Origin: Bacteroidia bacterium
GTDB lineage: Bacteria > Bacteroidota > Bacteroidia > B-17B0 > Aurantibacillaceae
Length of the DNA: 37,622 nt
Direction of reading: 5' to 3'
Assembly (NCBI GenBank): GCA_020846025.1
Contig: JADLER010000088.1
Coordinates: 1 to 37,622, forward strand
Both the position numbers and the translations under genes were made by a program. The stretch's first letter is position 1. The number at the start of each line of letters is the position of its first letter. This document shows, in pieces, positions 12,494-22,675 of the stretch. Under the pieces are notes generated by a model, which was not told the DNA's origin, searched no databases, and saw nothing but the letters and a program-made list of their open reading frames with translations.

Positions 12494-12988
12494 ATGGAAT
12501 TATTAAACATAGTAAATGAAAAGCTAAATGCACAATTTCCTGGGGCTGTACTCACCGCAGAGATGTTGTATGATTTTCCAGTATTTGTAATTAGCAAAGA
12601 TAAAATTCATGACGTACTAAAATTCTTAAAAGAAGATGAAGCATTAAATTTTCATTTTCTAACAGATTTAACGGGTATGCAAACACCAGACGAAAAACAG
12701 TTGGGCGTTATTTATCACTTACATAATATGCCAAAAAATTACCGTATCCGTGTAAAAACGTTTATGGATATTAATAAACCAGAAATACCTACCGCAACAG
12801 ATTTGTGGTTAGGGGCTAATTGGATGGAAAGAGAAACTTATGATTTTTTTGGAGTAAAGTTTTTAGGTCATCCAAATTTAAAACGAATTTTAAATGTGGA
12901 CGAAATGGATATTTTTCCGTTACGGAAGGAATATCCTTTGGAAGATCAAACCCGCGATGATAAAGATGATACCATGTTTGGTAGATAA
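12494..12988 (+). CDS. nuoC: NADH-quinone oxidoreductase subunit C
   Basis: This 164-aa protein has the 30-kDa-subunit signature near the end: WMERETYDFFGVKF and HPNLKRILNVDE, followed by FPLRKEYPLED. It is a stand-alone NuoC, not a NuoCD fusion. It scaffolds NuoB/NuoD in the peripheral arm. In most bacteria nuoD follows directly; here nuoD is 5.77 kb away because three secreted-protein genes intervene. Confidence 0.96.
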   Translation: MELLNIVNEKLNAQFPGAVLTAEMLYDFPVFVISKDKIHDVLKFLKEDEALNFHFLTDLTGMQTPDEKQLGVIYHLHNMPKNYRIRVKTFMDINKPEIPTATDLWLGANWMERETYDFFGVKFLGHPNLKRILNVDEMDIFPLRKEYPLEDQTRDDKDDTMFGR

Positions 12989-12995
12989 ATTAAAC

Positions 12996-13044
12996 AAGTT
13001 AAAAGTTAAAAATCTGTTACGTTATAACTTTTACTTTTTAACTT
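12996..13044. repeat. Imperfect AT-rich palindrome between nuoC and the first inserted gene
   Basis: AAGTTAAAAG (12996-13005) is complementary to CTTTTTAACTT (13034-13044) with a one-base bulge; the inner sequence also has partial GTTAAAA/TTTTAC complementarity. It ends 7 nt before the ATG at 13052 and has no following T-tract, so it is not a classical terminator. It may be a dispersed AT-rich palindromic element or an RNA-processing site. Confidence 0.45.
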
Positions 13045-13051
13045 AACAAAA

Positions 13052-13876
13052 ATGAATAAAAAGTACGCCATAAAAAAATTATCATTCATCATTAGCTGCT
13101 TTTTGGTGTTTTTATGCACCAAAAGCCACGCCCAAGCCCAATGGAAATTTCATTTGGCATTTGAGGATGCCACAGGCGCAAAAGACACTATTTGGTTGAT
13201 TTGGGATACAAGCGCTGTTTTATGGGACTACGACCCCTTATTAGGAGAAGGACATGTAGATATAGACCTCGATAATTTTAGTACTTGGGTAATAAATTAT
13301 AATAATGATACCACAAAAACTACAGCAGAGCCATTCATTAGTAGTGCTTTAGGAAATTACATTTACGGTACTGAAAATTTCCAATCTCCGCTAACGCTAA
13401 GTTGGGACAGTTCATTGTTTCACGCGCCCAACTTGCCACAACCTGTTAATTTGGCGTATATGGATAACGGGTATTTTTTCGGCAATAATAACTGCCCGTT
13501 CTGTCACCATTTTGATATGCTGATAGATAATCACGTAACGATTGATTTGAACGTATTTCCCTATGATTTTTTTCCTGTATTTATTAATATAGAAAGAGGC
13601 GCTGTGCTTAATATAAATGAAAACATAAGCATCAGTAAGAAAAAACCTTTGATTTCCCCAAATCCTGCTTCTTACCTTATTAGCATCAAATCAGATAAAA
13701 ATATAAAAGAATGTTCGTTAATTGATAATACTGGAATAGTTGTATTATATCAATCTGTTAGAGATATGACCAATAATGTACTATCTGTTCAAGATATTTC
13801 TTCGGGGGTCTATGTTTTAAAAATTATTAATCAAAACAATGAAGTATATTATGAAAAAATTATCATTACTCATTAG
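13052..13876 (+). CDS. Small T9SS-exported protein, copy 1 of a tandem pair
   Basis: This 274-aa protein has a signal peptide (KKLSFIISCFLVFLCTKSHAQA, cleavage near HAQ-AQ), a conserved N-terminal block (AQWKFHLAFEDATGAKDTIW), a diverged middle, and a T9SS type A sorting domain from about residue 200 (ISPNPASYLISIKS... SGVYVLKIINQ... YYEKIII). It should be exported by Sec and secreted or anchored by T9SS. Its function is unknown; the N-terminal family recurs in Bacteroidota surface proteins. It is a close paralogue of the next gene, and its 3' end overlaps that gene in another frame. It sits 63 bp after nuoC. Confidence 0.82.
   Translation: MNKKYAIKKLSFIISCFLVFLCTKSHAQAQWKFHLAFEDATGAKDTIWLIWDTSAVLWDYDPLLGEGHVDIDLDNFSTWVINYNNDTTKTTAEPFISSALGNYIYGTENFQSPLTLSWDSSLFHAPNLPQPVNLAYMDNGYFFGNNNCPFCHHFDMLIDNHVTIDLNVFPYDFFPVFINIERGAVLNINENISISKKKPLISPNPASYLISIKSDKNIKECSLIDNTGIVVLYQSVRDMTNNVLSVQDISSGVYVLKIINQNNEVYYEKIIITH
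13815..13858 (+). repeat. 44-bp perfect direct repeat, copy 1, spanning a gene overlap
   Basis: These 44 bases are identical to 14593-14636, 778 bp downstream. In one frame they encode the end of the T9SS tail (ILKIINQNNEVYYEK-like) and in another the ATGs that start the next gene. They mark the edge of a tandem duplication unit. Confidence 0.9.
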
Positions 13877-14654
13877 CTGTCTTTTGGTGTTTTTGTGCAC
13901 CAAAAGCCACGCCCAAGCCCAATGGAAATTTCATTTGGCATTTGAAGATGCCACAGGTGCAAAAGACACCATTTGGCTTATTTGGGATACAAGTGCTACT
14001 GTGGGTACTTTTGGGCAAATTGACTCTGCTCTTGGAGAAGACGCTTTCCCTTTTAATTATAATGAATTTAATGTTTGGGTTTATAATTATAATAATGATT
14101 CTACCAAAACACAAGCCAATCCCTTTACAAATATATTGTCAATTGAAATCCACGCCTTCAACCACCAGTATCCCATTACCATATCATGGGACAGTTCATT
14201 ATTTCACTCGCCCGACTTGCCACAGCCTGTTGGTAGTGCGTGGCTGGGTAATGATTATTATTTTTTGGTAAATAACGACCCTCCTTCTCAGTCATTTAAT
14301 ATGTTATGGGATAGTTCGGTTATTGCTCCTGCGTATTACTGGGGGGCGCAGTCGCATTTTCCCTTAGGCGTTGATATAGCATTTCATTCCTCTGTTGGGA
14401 TAAATGAGATAAACTCCACTAAAAAAATATCCGTTTACCCCAATCCTACCAGTAATATAATTACTATCAAGGCAAAAGAAATTAAAGCATGTTTCTTACT
14501 TGATAATATGGGGAAAACGTTGCTAAACAAGGATTTTTATAAAGGTACTGATTATACCTTATCCGTTCAGGATATTCCTTCGGGCTGCTATATTTTAAAA
14601 ATTATTAATCAAAACAATGAAGTATATTATGAAAAAGTCATCATTCATCATTAA
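13851..14654 (+). CDS. Small T9SS-exported protein, copy 2 of a tandem pair
   Basis: This 267-aa paralogue of the preceding gene starts at ATG 13851 (MKKLSLLISCLLVFLC); an in-frame ATG at 13839 would add MKYI. From VFLCTKSHAQ to IWDTSA, 37 residues are identical to copy 1, after which the middle diverges. Blocks such as WDSSLFH..LPQPV remain shared. The T9SS type A domain runs from about residue 190 (ISVYPNPTSNIITIKAKE) to the end (NNEVYYEKVIIHH). The first 26 nt overlap the end of copy 1, and the last 26 nt overlap the start of the next gene, each in a different frame, which suggests translational coupling. Surface location inferred; function unknown. Confidence 0.82.
   Translation: MKKLSLLISCLLVFLCTKSHAQAQWKFHLAFEDATGAKDTIWLIWDTSATVGTFGQIDSALGEDAFPFNYNEFNVWVYNYNNDSTKTQANPFTNILSIEIHAFNHQYPITISWDSSLFHSPDLPQPVGSAWLGNDYYFLVNNDPPSQSFNMLWDSSVIAPAYYWGAQSHFPLGVDIAFHSSVGINEINSTKKISVYPNPTSNIITIKAKEIKACFLLDNMGKTLLNKDFYKGTDYTLSVQDIPSGCYILKIINQNNEVYYEKVIIHH
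14593..14636 (+). repeat. 44-bp perfect direct repeat, copy 2, spanning a gene overlap
   Basis: Identical to 13815-13858. It holds the end of the copy-2 T9SS tail and, in another frame, the two candidate ATGs (14617 and 14629) of the large M6-like protein. Identity stops one base beyond the run GAAAAA. Confidence 0.9.
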
Positions 14655-17600
14655 GCTATCGGTAGCATTATGTTTTATTTCGTTTTTGGGCGTTGCCCAA
14701 AATTGTATTATCGCCCCCCCAGCTTCGCCCAATGGGCAAAATGGCGGTGGCGGTACTCAAAGCCTCTCAACGGTTTACGAAAGTAAAAATGGCTGGTATC
14801 TGCCTACGGCAGGCGAAATACGCATTTTGTTTGTGTTTTTTGAGGTTAATTACACAGCGGGTACAGACCCAACTAACCCCAATAATATTCATTGGCTACC
14901 GCATCAACTGCCCGACTGGGCAACCGATATAGCCGATGTATATGCCCCCGGAGGAGCTTCTACCAAAGCACTTACTCGCTATTTTCAATTAGCTTCTTCG
15001 GGCAATTTCACGGTTTTGGGCGATTATTTGTTAGCACCTGACAACGGCGGTATTTTTTTGGTTAATAGTGCTACGGGGAGTGTTACCCCGCAACATGCTA
15101 TTAACAGTATCAACGCCAAACTGGGAACAAGCATTGTTACTGCACACGGATTAAATGCTATAAGTCATTTCGATAAATGGACAGCAGGAAGTGCCTATCA
15201 AGGATTACCTAAAATAACACCCAGCACCGATTCACCCGCTAGATATGACCATGTGATGTTCATCTGCCGAAACAGTAAAGGTAATAATGGTGAAGGTTAT
15301 ATGAGTTCGTCCCTGCCCTTGAATATGCTCGGATTTCAAGCTAATACACACAGCTATTTTGGAGCGTACAATGATTTGCCTTTTAATATCATCAGACATG
15401 AATTTAGTCATGCGCTTTATGGCGACAATAATTTTCATTGCGGAGGTGGTGGTACAGGGAATTTAAATACGCCTCAAAATTACTGGATACCGCTGATAGG
15501 CGGTTGGAGCAATATGAGCCTGTACAACGGCTCGCTGAACAGTTGGAACGCCTGGGACAGGCTGCGTATGGACTGGCGGGCGGCAGGCGTGAGCAATGGC
15601 ATTAATGCCCGAAATGCCGCAGGCAAAGTGAATGTAAACGGCGATTTAGATGCCACTAACCCTGCCCACGCAGGCACTTATACGCTGCGAGATTTTGTAT
15701 TGTTTGGCGATGCCATTCGCATCAAGCTGCCCTTTACCAACCCTGCTACCGAATACCCCCAATGGCTATGGATAGAAAACCACCAGGGGCAAAGCGTGAA
15801 CGGCATCGCCTTTGATAAATGGCAACATGAGGGCAATACTTGTATAGACCCCGTTGTGCCGGGCATATACGCCTATTTGCAGATAGATAAAGAAGTACGT
15901 TCGGCAGCAACGTCCGCTGAGGTGTATCACGGCTACGCCGATTACCTTCGTCCGCTCACAGCCGACGGCTTTTGCGACCGTGAGTTTGAAAGCAGTACGG
16001 TGTATAACAACTGTATTCAGTGGGGAAATACCAATGCCTTTACTAAGTTGCTCCCTAACCCGCTCACGGGCGGCTCAGACCAAGAATATTATGCCATAGA
16101 CAAACTCGGCGATGGGCAAATTAATTATAACGATAATTATGCAAATAATTCGGAATTGTATAACGGCAATTATAATCATCATACTTACATGATTGGCAAT
16201 TCTCGTCACGCCTTTACTCTTGGTGGCAACAACAAAATAGGCATGGGCACTAATCCCTCCTCGGCAAGCATGATGAATTTGGTCGGTTATGATTTCGCAG
16301 TAGCAGGCATGAAAAACTTACGCAAAATATACCTTAACGGGGTTTCGGTAGAGATACTCAGCTATGGGCTTAATAACACCATAAAGGTGCAGGTGCGGTT
16401 TGATGATGTGGATATAGCCGATGACGTGCGTTGGTGTGCTGATACCATTGTGCTCAATCCCATAGCAAGCCCTTCGGGTTATTCTATGAACATCAAAAAC
16501 GGCAAAATCGTTACCTTAGACCAAGGCACTACCGCCACCCGTATGAACAACCCGCAAACCATTGGCGGTAAGCAGGTGTTTGCTTCGCCTACTCGGTTTA
16601 CGGCGAGGGCTAACTCATACATTCATTTGGAAAACAATGCTCAATTAATAGCAGACCACACTAGTACGCTGGCATTAAGTGCAGGGTCAAAATTAGAATT
16701 GGAAAGCGGTGCAAAGCTCATTATCCGTAACAATAGCCAATTAGTTTTAGAAAACGGCAGCCAGTTAATTGTGAAAGGCACGGCGCAGGTGGTGGTAGAA
16801 ACAGGCGGTAAATTGTTGTACAACGGTGGTACTATTAAGCTCAATGATAATACCTCTACCATAGAAATTAAAGACGGTTTTTTAGAGATAGGAGCTAATC
16901 AAGTGTTTACTTACACAGGCTCTACCTCTATGGTATATGGCTACATCAAATTTACCTCGCCGTCTTTTCCAAGCACCAATATTATAGCAGGTACAGGTTC
17001 TTCCATAAACATTACAGGTTTTACCAAAACCAAAACCATTTTTGAAGTAACGCAGGAAACGATGGCTTTGCCGATGAACCTTGCTTTGTTTAAAATTAAA
17101 AACGGTTCGGTGCTGTTGGGTGCAGGGGCAAGGGTGCTTTTTTCAGACGGTAATACGGTGGTGGATATTAATAACTGCCGTTTTGGTTCAAACACAGGCA
17201 CAAAAACCACTCATCGGGGCTTGGTGCTGTATGGGCAGTCTAATGTAGCCATTACCAACTCTACCTTTGAAAACGGTACGTATGGCGTATATGGCTGGCT
17301 CACGTATGGCGGTGCACCGCACACGTTTAATTATTGTACGTTTCAAAACAACGACATTGGTTTGTTTAGCCACGATAAAGGCATTACGCTCAATAACTGC
17401 TCTTTTTACAAAAACAGTCAATACGGCTGGTATGCCGAAGCCATGTCGTTCAATTGTTTTGCCAACAACTGTTCGTTTGGCGAAAGCCTTCCCAACGCCA
17501 ACGCTACGGCTCTTTATTTTCAGGGAGCGTATAATATTTCGCTGAAAGTAGATAACCCTGCCATAAGCTACAATACCAACGGTATTATTGTATCAGGTAC

Positions 17601-18669
17601 TACGGCTTATGTGCGTTGCGGTTTTGTAAAGAACAACAGCGGCAACGGCTTTGAAGTAACCGCCTACGGCACGTTGGATATGGGCGATAACTGGGACAGC
17701 CAACCCTCCAAAGTAATAGCTACTAACAACGGCACAACCATAAAGAGTATTGGTGCTTTTAGTATAGACTTGGATAATGGGCGTAATGCTTTGTATCCGT
17801 CTGTACAAGGGCAACAAAAAGTTGTGAACGGAACAATAGCAGGAGGTTGTGCGCCGTTTATGATACCTGCTTTTAATAACCAATGGAAAACAGGCGGTGG
17901 CTCGCCCACCAACACCGATTATTTTTTGCAAACGTATGACCCTTACAATCCTTGTCCCTTGCAGTCTGTAATCATAAGCGATGCCACACCCATAACCGCC
18001 ACAGCGTGCCCCGGTGGTGGTTTGCCAAGTTTGGTTTCGGGATTTGATACCTTCTCAGAAGATAACAGTAACGAGAGCAACGTTAATTTAGATGTTTTTA
18101 ATGATGATTTGGCAAAAATGAATATGAGCCGTGCGGCTTCCGATTATACAGATGCTTTAAGCCGAATAAACCTCATACTTTCGGGTACTCTAAACGATGA
18201 ACAACGTGTCATTGCCGAAAACTGGCAATGTATTATTCAGTCGGAAATTAATCAGGTTTCGGCAAGTACCGAAAATATTAATACACCAATAAGCACCGTT
18301 GAAAATTGTAGTGGAAGTGCTGCCAGAGTGTTTTATTCCAATCAAACTCATAATGAAACAAACGCTAACACTCAAAACAGCAAAATGCTTGATGAAACTA
18401 AACAATTACAGAATGATAAATTTAAAGTAAAAATACTACCAAACCCTAATAATGGTAATTTTGAGTTGAATGTGGAAAGCGATAAAGAAAGTTTATGCGA
18501 ATTAACGGTGTTTGATATTACAGGAAAAATGATTTATGCAGAAAAATTTAGCATTTCATCGGGAAATAATGTAAAATTGTTTTCCGAAAATATTGATAAA
18601 GCGGTGTATATAGTAAATATTAAAAACGAGTTTGGCGATAATAAAAACATTAAGTTAATAATAGAATAA
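14629..18669 (+). CDS. Secreted M6-like metalloprotease / beta-solenoid protein with T9SS type A domain
   Basis: This 1346-aa protein (start ATG 14629; alternative in-frame ATG 14617) has a signal peptide ending near FLGVAQ. Residues 257-270 read HEFSHALYGDNNFH, a zinc-metalloprotease HExxH motif, followed by WDRLRMDW and WLWIENHQG segments reminiscent of M6/immune-inhibitor-A-like proteases. Residues ~665-755 form short beta repeats (LENGSQLIVKG type). Residues ~870-1020 look like a right-handed beta-helix (NVAITNSTFENGTYGVYG). A T9SS type A tail begins at about 1265 (KILPNPNNGNFELNV). It is the last gene of the insert between nuoC and nuoD. Much of it is far more GC-rich than its surroundings (40 of 60 bases in 15541-15600), with CTG/GGC codons, suggesting acquisition from another genome. 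Protease activity and target are inferred. Confidence 0.8.
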   Translation: MKKSSFIIKLSVALCFISFLGVAQNCIIAPPASPNGQNGGGGTQSLSTVYESKNGWYLPTAGEIRILFVFFEVNYTAGTDPTNPNNIHWLPHQLPDWATDIADVYAPGGASTKALTRYFQLASSGNFTVLGDYLLAPDNGGIFLVNSATGSVTPQHAINSINAKLGTSIVTAHGLNAISHFDKWTAGSAYQGLPKITPSTDSPARYDHVMFICRNSKGNNGEGYMSSSLPLNMLGFQANTHSYFGAYNDLPFNIIRHEFSHALYGDNNFHCGGGGTGNLNTPQNYWIPLIGGWSNMSLYNGSLNSWNAWDRLRMDWRAAGVSNGINARNAAGKVNVNGDLDATNPAHAGTYTLRDFVLFGDAIRIKLPFTNPATEYPQWLWIENHQGQSVNGIAFDKWQHEGNTCIDPVVPGIYAYLQIDKEVRSAATSAEVYHGYADYLRPLTADGFCDREFESSTVYNNCIQWGNTNAFTKLLPNPLTGGSDQEYYAIDKLGDGQINYNDNYANNSELYNGNYNHHTYMIGNSRHAFTLGGNNKIGMGTNPSSASMMNLVGYDFAVAGMKNLRKIYLNGVSVEILSYGLNNTIKVQVRFDDVDIADDVRWCADTIVLNPIASPSGYSMNIKNGKIVTLDQGTTATRMNNPQTIGGKQVFASPTRFTARANSYIHLENNAQLIADHTSTLALSAGSKLELESGAKLIIRNNSQLVLENGSQLIVKGTAQVVVETGGKLLYNGGTIKLNDNTSTIEIKDGFLEIGANQVFTYTGSTSMVYGYIKFTSPSFPSTNIIAGTGSSINITGFTKTKTIFEVTQETMALPMNLALFKIKNGSVLLGAGARVLFSDGNTVVDINNCRFGSNTGTKTTHRGLVLYGQSNVAITNSTFENGTYGVYGWLTYGGAPHTFNYCTFQNNDIGLFSHDKGITLNNCSFYKNSQYGWYAEAMSFNCFANNCSFGESLPNANATALYFQGAYNISLKVDNPAISYNTNGIIVSGTTAYVRCGFVKNNSGNGFEVTAYGTLDMGDNWDSQPSKVIATNNGTTIKSIGAFSIDLDNGRNALYPSVQGQQKVVNGTIAGGCAPFMIPAFNNQWKTGGGSPTNTDYFLQTYDPYNPCPLQSVIISDATPITATACPGGGLPSLVSGFDTFSEDNSNESNVNLDVFNDDLAKMNMSRAASDYTDALSRINLILSGTLNDEQRVIAENWQCIIQSEINQVSASTENINTPISTVENCSGSAARVFYSNQTHNETNANTQNSKMLDETKQLQNDKFKVKILPNPNNGNFELNVESDKESLCELTVFDITGKMIYAEKFSISSGNNVKLFSENIDKAVYIVNIKNEFGDNKNIKLIIE

Positions 18670-18709
18670 ACATAAGATTTTGGAAGATAAATAAAGTTTT
18701 CAGTTAATA

Positions 18710-18742
18710 GTTTTTAGTTGTTTGATAAACACAACTAAAAAC
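18710..18742 (+). other. Perfect 12-bp hairpin just upstream of nuoD
   Basis: GTTTTTAGTTGT (18710-18721) and ACAACTAAAAAC (18731-18742) pair perfectly around a 9-nt loop. The stem ends 15 nt before the nuoD ATG (18758). No T-tract follows, so intrinsic termination is unlikely. It could be an mRNA processing or stability element, or affect nuoD translation. Confidence 0.55.
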
Positions 18743-18757
18743 ACAACTAATTTAAAA

Positions 18758-19972
18758 ATGAGTAAGAAAGAAACTAAGCATACCGAGAATACAAATCACC
18801 TTGATGAAAGAATATTCTCAACCCTCAACTTAGGACCTACACATCCTGCCACACATGGTATTTTTCAAAACGTATTGAAAATGGACGGAGAGGTTATTCA
18901 TGAGGCAACCTCAACCATTGGATATATCCATCGTGCTTTTGAAAAAATTGCCGAGCGTCGCCCCTATGCACAAATCACACCTTTAACCGATAGGTTAAAC
19001 TACTGCTCAGCACCAATTAATAATTTAGGTTGGCACATGGCAGTTGAAAAATTGTTAGGAGCAAAAATGCCAAAGCGTGCCGAGTACCACCGTGTTATTA
19101 TCATGGAATTATCACGCATCGCCGATCACATTATTTGTAACTCAGTAATTGGTGTTGACACTGGCGCCATGACGGGCTTCTTATACATTTTTCAATGGCG
19201 TGAAAAAATTTATGAAATATTTGAAGACATTTGTGGTGCACGCTTAACCACAAATATTGGTCGTATTGGAGGCTTTGACAGAGAATGGAAAAAAGAAACT
19301 TGGGATAAGATTCACGCTTTTATAAAAGAATTTCCAGCAGCTCTTCAAGAGTTTACGGAGTTACTAGAACGTAACCGTATTTTTATGGATAGAACCATTG
19401 GTTGCGGGCCTATTAGTGCCGAAAAAGCTTTGTCGTATGGATTTACAGGGCCAAACTTACGTGCTACGGGAATTGATTATGATGTGCGTGTGATGAATCC
19501 TTACTGTTCTTACGAAGACTTTACATTTACGGTTCCAGTGGGTACACAAGGTGATACGTTCGATCGTTTTATGGTGCGCCAACATGAAATGTGGCAAAGT
19601 TTAGAAATTATTAAACAGGCCATCAACAAAATGCCTGAGGGCGCTATGCACGCTGATTTGCCAGAATTCTTTTTACCACCTAAAGAACAAGTTTATAATA
19701 ATATGGAAGCCTTAATCTATCACTTTAAAATTGTGATGGGCGAAACAGATATTCCAAAAGGCGAAATATATCATTGTATTGAGGCAGGAAACGGAGAGTT
19801 AGGTTTTTATTTAATAAGTGATGGAGGAAGAACGCCATATCGTTTACATTTCCGTCGTCCTTGTTTTATATACTATCAAGCCTATGCCGAAATGGTAAAA
19901 GGAATTATGTTATCAGATGCAATTATAACTATGAGTAGTATGAATGTAATTGCAGGAGAGTTAGATGCTTAG
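18758..19972 (+). CDS. nuoD: NADH-quinone oxidoreductase subunit D
   Basis: This 404-aa protein matches the 49-kDa subunit in full length, with GPTHPATHG (residues 26-34), the conserved quinone-pocket segment, and the C-terminal RPCFIYYQA and SSMNVIAGELDA segments. I prefer ATG 18758 because the in-frame TTG at 18722 falls in the loop of the upstream hairpin and adds a non-conserved MINTTKNTTNLK stretch. With NuoB it forms the quinone reduction site. It resumes the nuo order after the 5.6-kb insert. Confidence 0.96.
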   Translation: MSKKETKHTENTNHLDERIFSTLNLGPTHPATHGIFQNVLKMDGEVIHEATSTIGYIHRAFEKIAERRPYAQITPLTDRLNYCSAPINNLGWHMAVEKLLGAKMPKRAEYHRVIIMELSRIADHIICNSVIGVDTGAMTGFLYIFQWREKIYEIFEDICGARLTTNIGRIGGFDREWKKETWDKIHAFIKEFPAALQEFTELLERNRIFMDRTIGCGPISAEKALSYGFTGPNLRATGIDYDVRVMNPYCSYEDFTFTVPVGTQGDTFDRFMVRQHEMWQSLEIIKQAINKMPEGAMHADLPEFFLPPKEQVYNNMEALIYHFKIVMGETDIPKGEIYHCIEAGNGELGFYLISDGGRTPYRLHFRRPCFIYYQAYAEMVKGIMLSDAIITMSSMNVIAGELDA

Positions 19973-22029: not shown

Positions 22030-22344
22030 ATGTTAGCGCCAGTGATAACAAATAATATAAATCGTATCAAAGCCATTTGCAAAGAGCATAAGGTAAAGGA
22101 GTTATATGTATTTGGGTCGGCAGCTAGAAATGAAATGAATGATAAAAGTGATGTTGATTTTATTATAAAGTTTAATAATGATGTGCCAGTTGAAGATTAT
22201 GTAGATTTATATTTTGATTTTGCAGAATCAATGGAAATGATTTTAAATACAAAAGTTGACGTTTTACTTGATAAACCAATAAGAAATAGAATTTTACAAA
22301 GAGAATTAGACGAAACTAAACAAATTGTATATGTCGCAGCATAA
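22030..22344 (+). CDS. mntA: MNT-type nucleotidyltransferase antitoxin (MntA-like)
   Basis: This 104-aa minimal nucleotidyltransferase has the exact GSX10DXD motif: G29-S30, ten residues, then D41-V-D43, plus a third Asp at D77 (KVDVLL). In type VII (HepT-MntA) toxin-antitoxin systems this enzyme neutralises the HEPN toxin by adding AMP from ATP to a tyrosine of it. The HEPN gene overlaps its 3' end by 14 nt, as is usual for such pairs. All catalytic residues are present, so it should be active. It lies 7 nt after nuoF with no room for its own promoter. The family is certain; the AMPylation role is from characterised homologues. Confidence 0.88.
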   Translation: MLAPVITNNINRIKAICKEHKVKELYVFGSAARNEMNDKSDVDFIIKFNNDVPVEDYVDLYFDFAESMEMILNTKVDVLLDKPIRNRILQRELDETKQIVYVAA

Positions 22345-22675
22345 AGAGATAGAGAAATATTTACAAGATATTCTGATTTCAATAGAAGATGCGAAGACAT
22401 TTACAAAAGATATTAAAAGATTTGCAGATTTTACTGCAGATAAAAAGACATACAGAGCAGTTGAGCGTTGTATTGAAATTATTGCCGAAGCAATAAGCAG
22501 AGTAAGGAAGATTGACGATAAAATTGAAATAGCGAATGCTCAAAGAATAGTAGGAATGCGTAACAGAGTTATTCATACTTACGACAATGTAAACGAAGAG
22601 TTGATTTGGGGTGTAGTTGTAAAACATCTTGATGAGTTAAAAAATGAAGTGGAAGAATTGATAAAAACATTTTGA
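22331..22675 (+). CDS. hepT: HEPN-domain toxin RNase (HepT-like)
   Basis: This 114-aa all-helical HEPN protein has the catalytic RX4HXY motif: R77-NRVI-H82-T-Y84, in the context GMRNRVIHTYDNV. R and H are the RNase residues of HEPN toxins, and the Tyr of this motif is the residue AMPylated by MntA in studied systems. I start it at ATG 22331, overlapping mntA by 14 nt; a TTG at 22325 is less likely. The stop lies 12 nt before nuoG. Members of this family cleave mRNA or tRNA when not neutralised; the target here is unknown. The motif is intact, so it does not look decayed. Confidence 0.88.
   Translation: MSQHKEIEKYLQDILISIEDAKTFTKDIKRFADFTADKKTYRAVERCIEIIAEAISRVRKIDDKIEIANAQRIVGMRNRVIHTYDNVNEELIWGVVVKHLDELKNEVEELIKTF

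Follow-up and report, generated by a model that had tools for sequence, protein, structure and literature searches.

A conserved overlap between the T9SS tail of a secreted protein and the start of an M6-like metalloprotease gene, apparently duplicated in a Bacteroidia genome

Three genes, here called A, B and C, lie head to tail on the plus strand of a 37,622-nt stretch of DNA from a Bacteroidia bacterium (contig JADLER010000088.1; the whole analysed stretch is referred to as the window). A and B belong to a family of secreted proteins that we designate family X, and C is an M6-like metalloprotease. Each gene overlaps the following one by 26 nt, and the same overlap joins a family X gene to a relative of C in other genomes. 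As far as sequences can tell, this overlap is real, old and kept in one register within one gene pair, and in the window it has been duplicated; initiation of translation inside it, coupling and any advantage are what we infer from it. The explanation that we prefer, and consider rather probable as a whole, is that A-B-C represents a cassette with an old and locked X-C overlap, with starts embedded in tails and with an A-B junction that would have arisen by duplication.

The initial annotation described 26-nt overlaps between A and B and between B and C, each in a different frame, and ORF analysis of the window bears this out, with the downstream gene in the +1 frame (Table 1). Both junctions are same-strand gene pairs with more than 5 nt in common and reading frames displaced by one, which is the definition of a long phase-1 overlap. 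Codons for [YH]-E-K at the end of the upstream tail carry the ATG-AAA-AA of the next gene, as had been proposed for Tyr-Glu-Lys. If the upstream ATGs at 13839 and 14617 were used instead, the overlap at each junction would be 38 nt. The perfect 44-bp direct repeat said to span both junctions is likewise present, and a repeat search of the window places it inside a 94-nt repeat of 88% identity. We considered that dual coding alone might preserve the 44-nt repeat and rejected this, because 36 of its 44 bases (13815-13850) are located upstream of the 26-nt overlap (24 of 44 for the 38-nt overlap) and the overlap itself already differs between the junctions. Searches for promoters, terminators and Rfam elements gave signals at the level of shuffled sequences or none.

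Table 1. Features of the A-B-C locus (positions within the window)
Feature	Position	Strand	Description
nuoC, left neighbour	12494..12988	+	nuoD directly next in relatives
gene A	13052..13876	+	274-aa secreted protein of family X; signal-peptide-like start; beta-rich domain; T9SS type A tail 13652-13867
5' repeat, start of A	13061..13216	+	90% identical to 13842-13997 (start of B)
44-nt perfect repeat, copy 1	13815..13858	+	found by sequence comparison
candidate A/T-rich leader of gene B (tail codons)	13831..13850	+	adenine at -3, -12, -13; positions after the available part of PMC6847099
gene B	13851..14654	+	267-aa paralogue of A, 56% identical; alternative ATG 13839 upstream; T9SS tail 14433-14645
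A/B overlap, 26 nt	13851..13876	+	ATG in +1 frame within TAT-GAA-AAA
44-nt perfect repeat, copy 2	14593..14636	+	found by sequence comparison
candidate A/T-rich leader of gene C (tail codons)	14609..14628	+	from leader scoring and folding
gene C	14629..18669	+	1346-aa secreted M6-like metalloprotease (HExxH) with beta-helix region; T9SS tail 18436-18663; alternative ATG 14617
B/C overlap, 26 nt	14629..14654	+	register as in A/B; conserved in loci L156, L158, L159, L174
nuoD, right neighbour of the A-B-C insert	18758..19972	+	ATG position read from sequence

All three proteins resemble exported T9SS cargo. In profile searches the tails of A, B and C pass the cut-offs of TIGR04183 and PF18962 (TIGR04183 scores of 35.5, 37.3 and 37.7 bits, respectively, against a cut-off of 23), and their translations begin, as read by eye, with signal-peptide-like N-termini. 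The translocon protein SprA, the T9SS component searched for, is encoded in the host genome (TIGR04189, 2052 bits, contig C110).

Family X comprises A, B and their relatives, which were collected by a scan with two peptide patterns yielding 20 loci, 19 of them assigned to Bacteroidota groups. The family is rare: it occurs in one of 395 genomes of the phylum and in two of 87 genomes of the order, the host being included in both counts. Among 60 genomes (host included), B matches over its full domain only A and a paralogue, L041, whose end is cut by a contig edge; both belong to the host, and matches of B in the remaining genomes concern mostly the tail. A Pfam search with 20 members returned no family below E 0.3. 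The structural model of the X domain built from 20 sequences reached a pLDDT of 84.0 (a two-sequence model was poor, 39.9), and Foldseek found no PDB match to the X domain model at E <= 0.001. Relationship to the CFA/I fimbrial chain was rejected: E of 4.4e-07 was obtained only for a three-copy fusion, and since single-copy chains gave E 0.41-0.63, we take the fusion match as chance similarity adding up over the copies.

As for C, the residues H233, E234 and H237 of its HExxH motif are invariant in all seven aligned sequences, the window's C included. TIGR03296 (M6) matches three of these seven (best 5.4e-12), with the window's C outside the matched ones, and a Pfam search of the seven yielded no match at E up to 5. 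Judged by the motif and by the TIGR03296 matches of its relatives, C is a predicted M6-like metalloprotease. Its position next to X suggests that X might be a partner, substrate or regulator of the protease.

A relative of C directly follows X in nine of the 20 loci and lies upstream of X in one more. At four of the nine (L156, L158b, L159 and L174) C shares exactly its first 26 nt with X, the X stop codon included, in the frame and register of the window's B-C junction, which brings the number of genomes to five. The ORFs behind these ATGs all encode C relatives, 27-50% identical over the matched parts, the lowest value coming from a 136-aa fragment in L158b. At the other five loci (L161, L164, L167, L170, L171) C starts 15-99 nt after the X stop, and a further X-C pair, in L249, has a gap of 1 nt. 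Two relics were recognized: L157 has the same junction with the overlapping frame closed after 25 aa, and the upstream X gene of L158 (L158a) keeps the junction sequence with the overlapping frame closed. Eight junctions align without gaps over 100 nt, with 16 of the 25 invariant columns clustered about the overlap (columns 42-69). That both ORFs are conserved in L156, L159 and others speaks for translation of both frames. An ATG at 26 nt in L162b was left out of the count, since the likely signal-peptide start there lies 91 nt after the stop. Wider searches around three genomes (247, 295 and 296 genomes, centres included and some genomes repeated) led to 22 loci, all of them re-finds or non-overlapping or incomplete members, with no new overlapping pair among them.

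At several of these loci the protease gene itself has decayed. Its frame is broken, short or lost in L157, L158 and L174 while the X ORF stays open; the X-C pair is thus not always kept working, and X may work without C. Further, a conserved ORF of 72 aa, by eye similar to the N-terminus of the C-like protease, is located 4 nt before an X-type gene at two sites, in the host genome (L041, 732-950, minus strand) and in L158 (4304-4522, plus strand). This ORF is part of a reshuffled array, and at the L158 site a DNA repeat links it to the C-like fragment.

How common are such junctions at T9SS tails? According to the initial annotation, type A tails often end in Y-E-K-like strands and thereby offer an easy route to coupled head-to-tail arrays of exported proteins, which we examined here as a general rule. 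Two such junctions in a row in the window agree with this, and an out-of-frame ATG within the last 40 nt of a tail is not rare (27 of 142 host tails). Nevertheless, a survey of all 144 tails of the host genome with their surroundings, 142 of them having the stop codon on the contig, speaks against it. Counting following ORFs of at least 80 aa, only five of the 142 tails run into the next one, and the shared stretch exceeds 4 nt solely in A and B; the same table contains no other T9SS gene cluster with an overlap like that of A-B-C. The [YHND]EK motif is uncommon, occurring in the last 19 residues of five of the 142 tails, A and B included. Among 58 tails from other genomes, which were the best-scoring ones and not a random draw, one overlap exceeds 4 nt, with an ORF that has no signal-peptide-like start, and three measure 4 nt. 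The suggested comparison with background revealed no excess either: a simple gene caller applied to the fetched part of the host genome finds overlaps above 4 nt in two of 71 T9SS pairs versus 22 of 321 other same-strand pairs. We therefore reject a general array-making mechanism for the host genome, and did not see it in the 58 best-scoring tails elsewhere; as an explanation of this locus it appears scarcely credible. Overlaps of 20-60 nt occur in five of the 321 other same-strand neighbour pairs, so one of them alone would be unremarkable. Two identical overlaps, with the same overlap conserved in other genomes, are by the sequence comparison not a product of chance.

Duplication had been proposed as the process that makes these arrays. 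At L156, L159 and L174 the X-C overlap is present although only a single X gene is seen, hence duplication did not create the overlap. What remains valid is the impression that the A-B junction was copied from B-C by duplication; most likely, it is a copy of an X-C junction. On a tree of C relatives (15 rows, midpoint root) the overlap appears in four of the 15 rows and requires two changes, which fit one gain and one loss, the latter in the L161/L167/L170 clade. The tree of X domains is poorly resolved: the overlap needs four to five changes there, A and B are not resolved as sisters, and a test for one clade (with paralogue P added) is rejected at p 0.0016, on long branches. Because the X tree speaks against one clade, the argument for single origin comes wholly from the C tree, which is rooted at midpoint only. 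These data indicate an X-C overlap that is old and predates the duplication of A and B.

Traces of the presumed duplication can be seen in A and B themselves, whose ends are nearly identical and whose middle parts have diverged. At identical residues, synonymous differences amount to 5 of 50 at the ends versus 38 of 92 in the middle (p ~1e-4, to be read with the limits of ends and middle in mind, as these were chosen post hoc, after the data had been seen). After gaps were stripped from the codon alignment, its longest stretch without a difference measures 50 nt, which none of 5000 shuffles reached; dS amounts to 0.3 over the first 30 columns and 0.15 over the last 12, and ranges from 0.4 to saturation between them. 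L158 provides a similar case, where a 246-nt block consisting of the T9SS tail, the stop codon and 5 nt is 96% identical between two neighbouring X paralogues; the core of one is 51% identical to B and that of the other 26%. Both patterns point to tails and junctions as sites of recombination or gene conversion. Presumably an X-C overlap already existed when X was duplicated upstream of it, and the junction was copied along. As a side observation, positions 13060-13077 at the start of A are similar to 13841-13858, the tail codons that precede B; the 18 bases differ at six sites, each time by a transition. This similarity, noticed post hoc, hints that the start of A might itself once have been placed behind another tail.

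The surroundings of the cassette concern its origin as well as the reliability of the assembly. Genes nuoC and nuoD were compared among the 60 genomes, of which 52 (host included) have nuoC; 30 loci were fetched, one of them being the host's own. In 28 of the 29 loci of relatives the two genes are adjacent, with 19-137 nt between the matches, and for the last locus the fetched flank contained no nuoD match. A-B-C is consequently a ~5.7 kb insert into the operon for complex I, and the host genome is the only one in which it was seen; the nearest relative, G014, has a nuo operon free of it. Inspection by eye and a repeat check of the nuoC-A and C-nuoD gaps disclosed nothing diagnostic of mobile-element ends. 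The gap before nuoD (18670-18757) contains a 12-bp perfect inverted repeat, and the gap before A (12989-13051) only an imperfect AT-rich inverted repeat recognized by eye, its perfect stem being no longer than 4. The nuoC-nuoD gap of G014 shows no sign of either. Elsewhere in the operon, between nuoF and nuoG (22030-22675), there is a pair of genes for an MNT-like nucleotidyltransferase and a HepT-like RNase overlapping by up to 20 nt, and this pair is found within the nuo operon of G014 too.

The comparison with G014 (L262 and L263; window 9420-32149) shows the operon to be a mosaic. Two stretches are nearly identical in DNA, with 98-100% at ~11.4-12.65 kb and 99.6-100% at 19.4-29.65 kb. Identity falls to 80-90% in the sequence adjoining the A-B-C insert and amounts to 82-96% beyond the nuo operon. 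Either recent recombination between species or an assembly chimera could be responsible. If the latter was the case, the tandem A-B copy or the insertion into nuo would be an artefact of metagenome assembly, and both the state of the draft (3.24 Mb in 241 contigs, 6.4% contamination) and stretches of 98-100% identity on both sides of an 80-90% patch are compatible with it. However, the patch (12.65-19.4 kb) contains the insert together with its own nuoC and nuoD ends on both sides, A and B differ at 44% of protein positions, and the X-C overlap was found independently in other genomes. We thus regard such an artefact as very improbable.

Returning to the overlaps, the question is whether their ATGs are used. 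The next in-frame ATG of both B and C is located more than 400 bases past the upstream stop, so any other ATG start would strip the signal peptide from these proteins; the ATG inside the overlap is the only choice of ATG that gives B or C a whole one. In L156, too, the next ATG would leave the protein without signal peptide, and in L159 no other in-frame ATG is found among those listed within 350 nt after the stop. B and C therefore probably start at the ATG within the tail codons. All seven open frames that have the register (A-B, B-C, L156, the relic L157, L158b, L159 and L174) encode Ile as residue 8 of the downstream protein and S, N or K as residue 9; both are forced by the stop codon of X.

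Messengers of Bacteroidota lack Shine-Dalgarno sequences, and initiation in F. johnsoniae is favoured by adenine at -3, -6, -12 and -13 and by low structure, according to the available part of PMC6847099. Three or four of these four positions are adenine in all eight junctions, relics included, compared with 40 of 140 other host tails and one of 11 X members that lack the overlap, scored at the corresponding position. At ordinary downstream starts in the host genome the mean is 1.87 of four favourable adenines (n = 39). The enrichment is thus absent there and may reflect tail composition; as the junctions are, moreover, mutually related, we treat the adenine-rich leader only as a hint. The context of the upstream ATGs 13839 and 14617 is equally good (adenine at three of four positions), which makes overlaps of 26 and 38 nt indistinguishable by this measure. 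The start regions of the seven junctions folded are poor in GC (12-26% in the -40..+40 window) and fold no more strongly than shuffled sequences (z-scores -0.7 to 1.4); with the -60..+60 window one junction, L158b, gave z = -3.2. Coupling through unfolding of mRNA was rejected, as no stable hairpin hides the starts. With start regions open in this way, independent initiation of the downstream gene is possible.

The scheme that we prefer for the origin and function of the locus is as follows. A cassette of secreted genes, consisting of X, its paralogue and the M6-like C, would have been placed between nuoC and nuoD. A T9SS tail whose end reads [YH]-E-K followed by five residues locks the stop of X to the start of C. 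Ribosomes might initiate C, and here also B, at the ATG within the tail codons, and the codons preceding it would provide an unstructured, adenine-rich initiation region of the type that replaces the Shine-Dalgarno sequence in Bacteroidota. Since C starts inside the translated part of X, protease output would be tied to translation of X through the shared mRNA and possibly through coupling. The A-B junction would result from head-to-tail duplication of X by recombination at the junction sequence, which put the second X behind the first tail, where C had been. Subsequently, tails and ends would be exchanged between the paralogues while their cores diverged.

One can go further and imagine that the final-strand codons of the T9SS tail serve two purposes, as export signal and as complete initiation region of the partner protease, linking the amounts of both surface proteins, and that they also act as a recombination joint for adding cargo without loss of export or expression. 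We offer this extended version tentatively and consider it rather doubtful. Coupling may be absent altogether, given the open start regions. Five other X-C pairs do with gaps of 15-99 nt, and L249 with a gap of 1 nt. Alternatively, the overlap could be neutral and frozen: the start of C shifted upstream into the X tail, or this tail was extended into C, with no coupling and no gain, and the arrangement persists because separation of the genes would need an insertion or a duplication. A simulation study indeed reports, in its accessible portion, that long phase-1 overlaps need no selection (PMC3887535); the open start regions make coupling unneeded, and one X-C clade lost the overlap and kept C. 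Neutrality does not readily account for a register retained even though X and C diverged to about half identity, nor for the favourable adenines before the ATG in every junction. It is a real possibility, albeit not the one we would expect to prove right.

If the start in the tail is used, then the locus represents a natural and conserved case of an export signal and a translation start contained in the same bases with no Shine-Dalgarno sequence. It would then offer a clean system for testing how Bacteroidota ribosomes start inside a gene that is under translation. Our results also point to X as a secreted family free of Pfam assignment, often found beside an M6-like protease and exchanging tails between paralogues, and they correct the wider claim that T9SS tails build coupled arrays.

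The literature coverage, which mostly excludes subscription journals, contains no paper that we could find on overlaps at T9SS tails. Four known systems come closest. Firstly, A, B and C resemble other T9SS type A sorting domain proteins (TIGR04183 / PF18962) in scoring above cut-off in a genome encoding SprA, and differ in that most tails examined do not overlap the next gene. Secondly, the sources available in part (PMC3887535, PMC10666635) describe long phase-1 overlaps as several-fold commoner than long phase-2 ones, and long overlaps overall as about four times rarer than those of 1, 4 or 8 nt. The junctions reported here, same-strand and 26 nt long, fall into their phase-1 series -8, -11, -14 ... 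-26. Here, however, an export signal is overlapped, the register is conserved between two secreted proteins, and the junction is duplicated and exchanged between paralogues. Thirdly, in termination-reinitiation coupling (PMC12548453, PMC10666635, as far as their accessible parts go) the downstream start likewise lies in or at the end of the upstream gene, and such pairs are often partners; PMC10666635 states that short overlapping pairs are often subunits of one complex and that, for coupling, genes must overlap only briefly or lie very close together. The overlaps enriched there measure 1, 4 and 8 nt, whereas 26 nt would need a backward move or a new ribosome. Finally, the Shine-Dalgarno-independent, adenine-dependent initiation of Bacteroidota (PMC6847099, available part) shares with our junctions adenine at -3, -6, -12 and -13 and low structure at the ATG; the difference is that here the presumed leader is itself coding, being made of the final codons of a T9SS tail.
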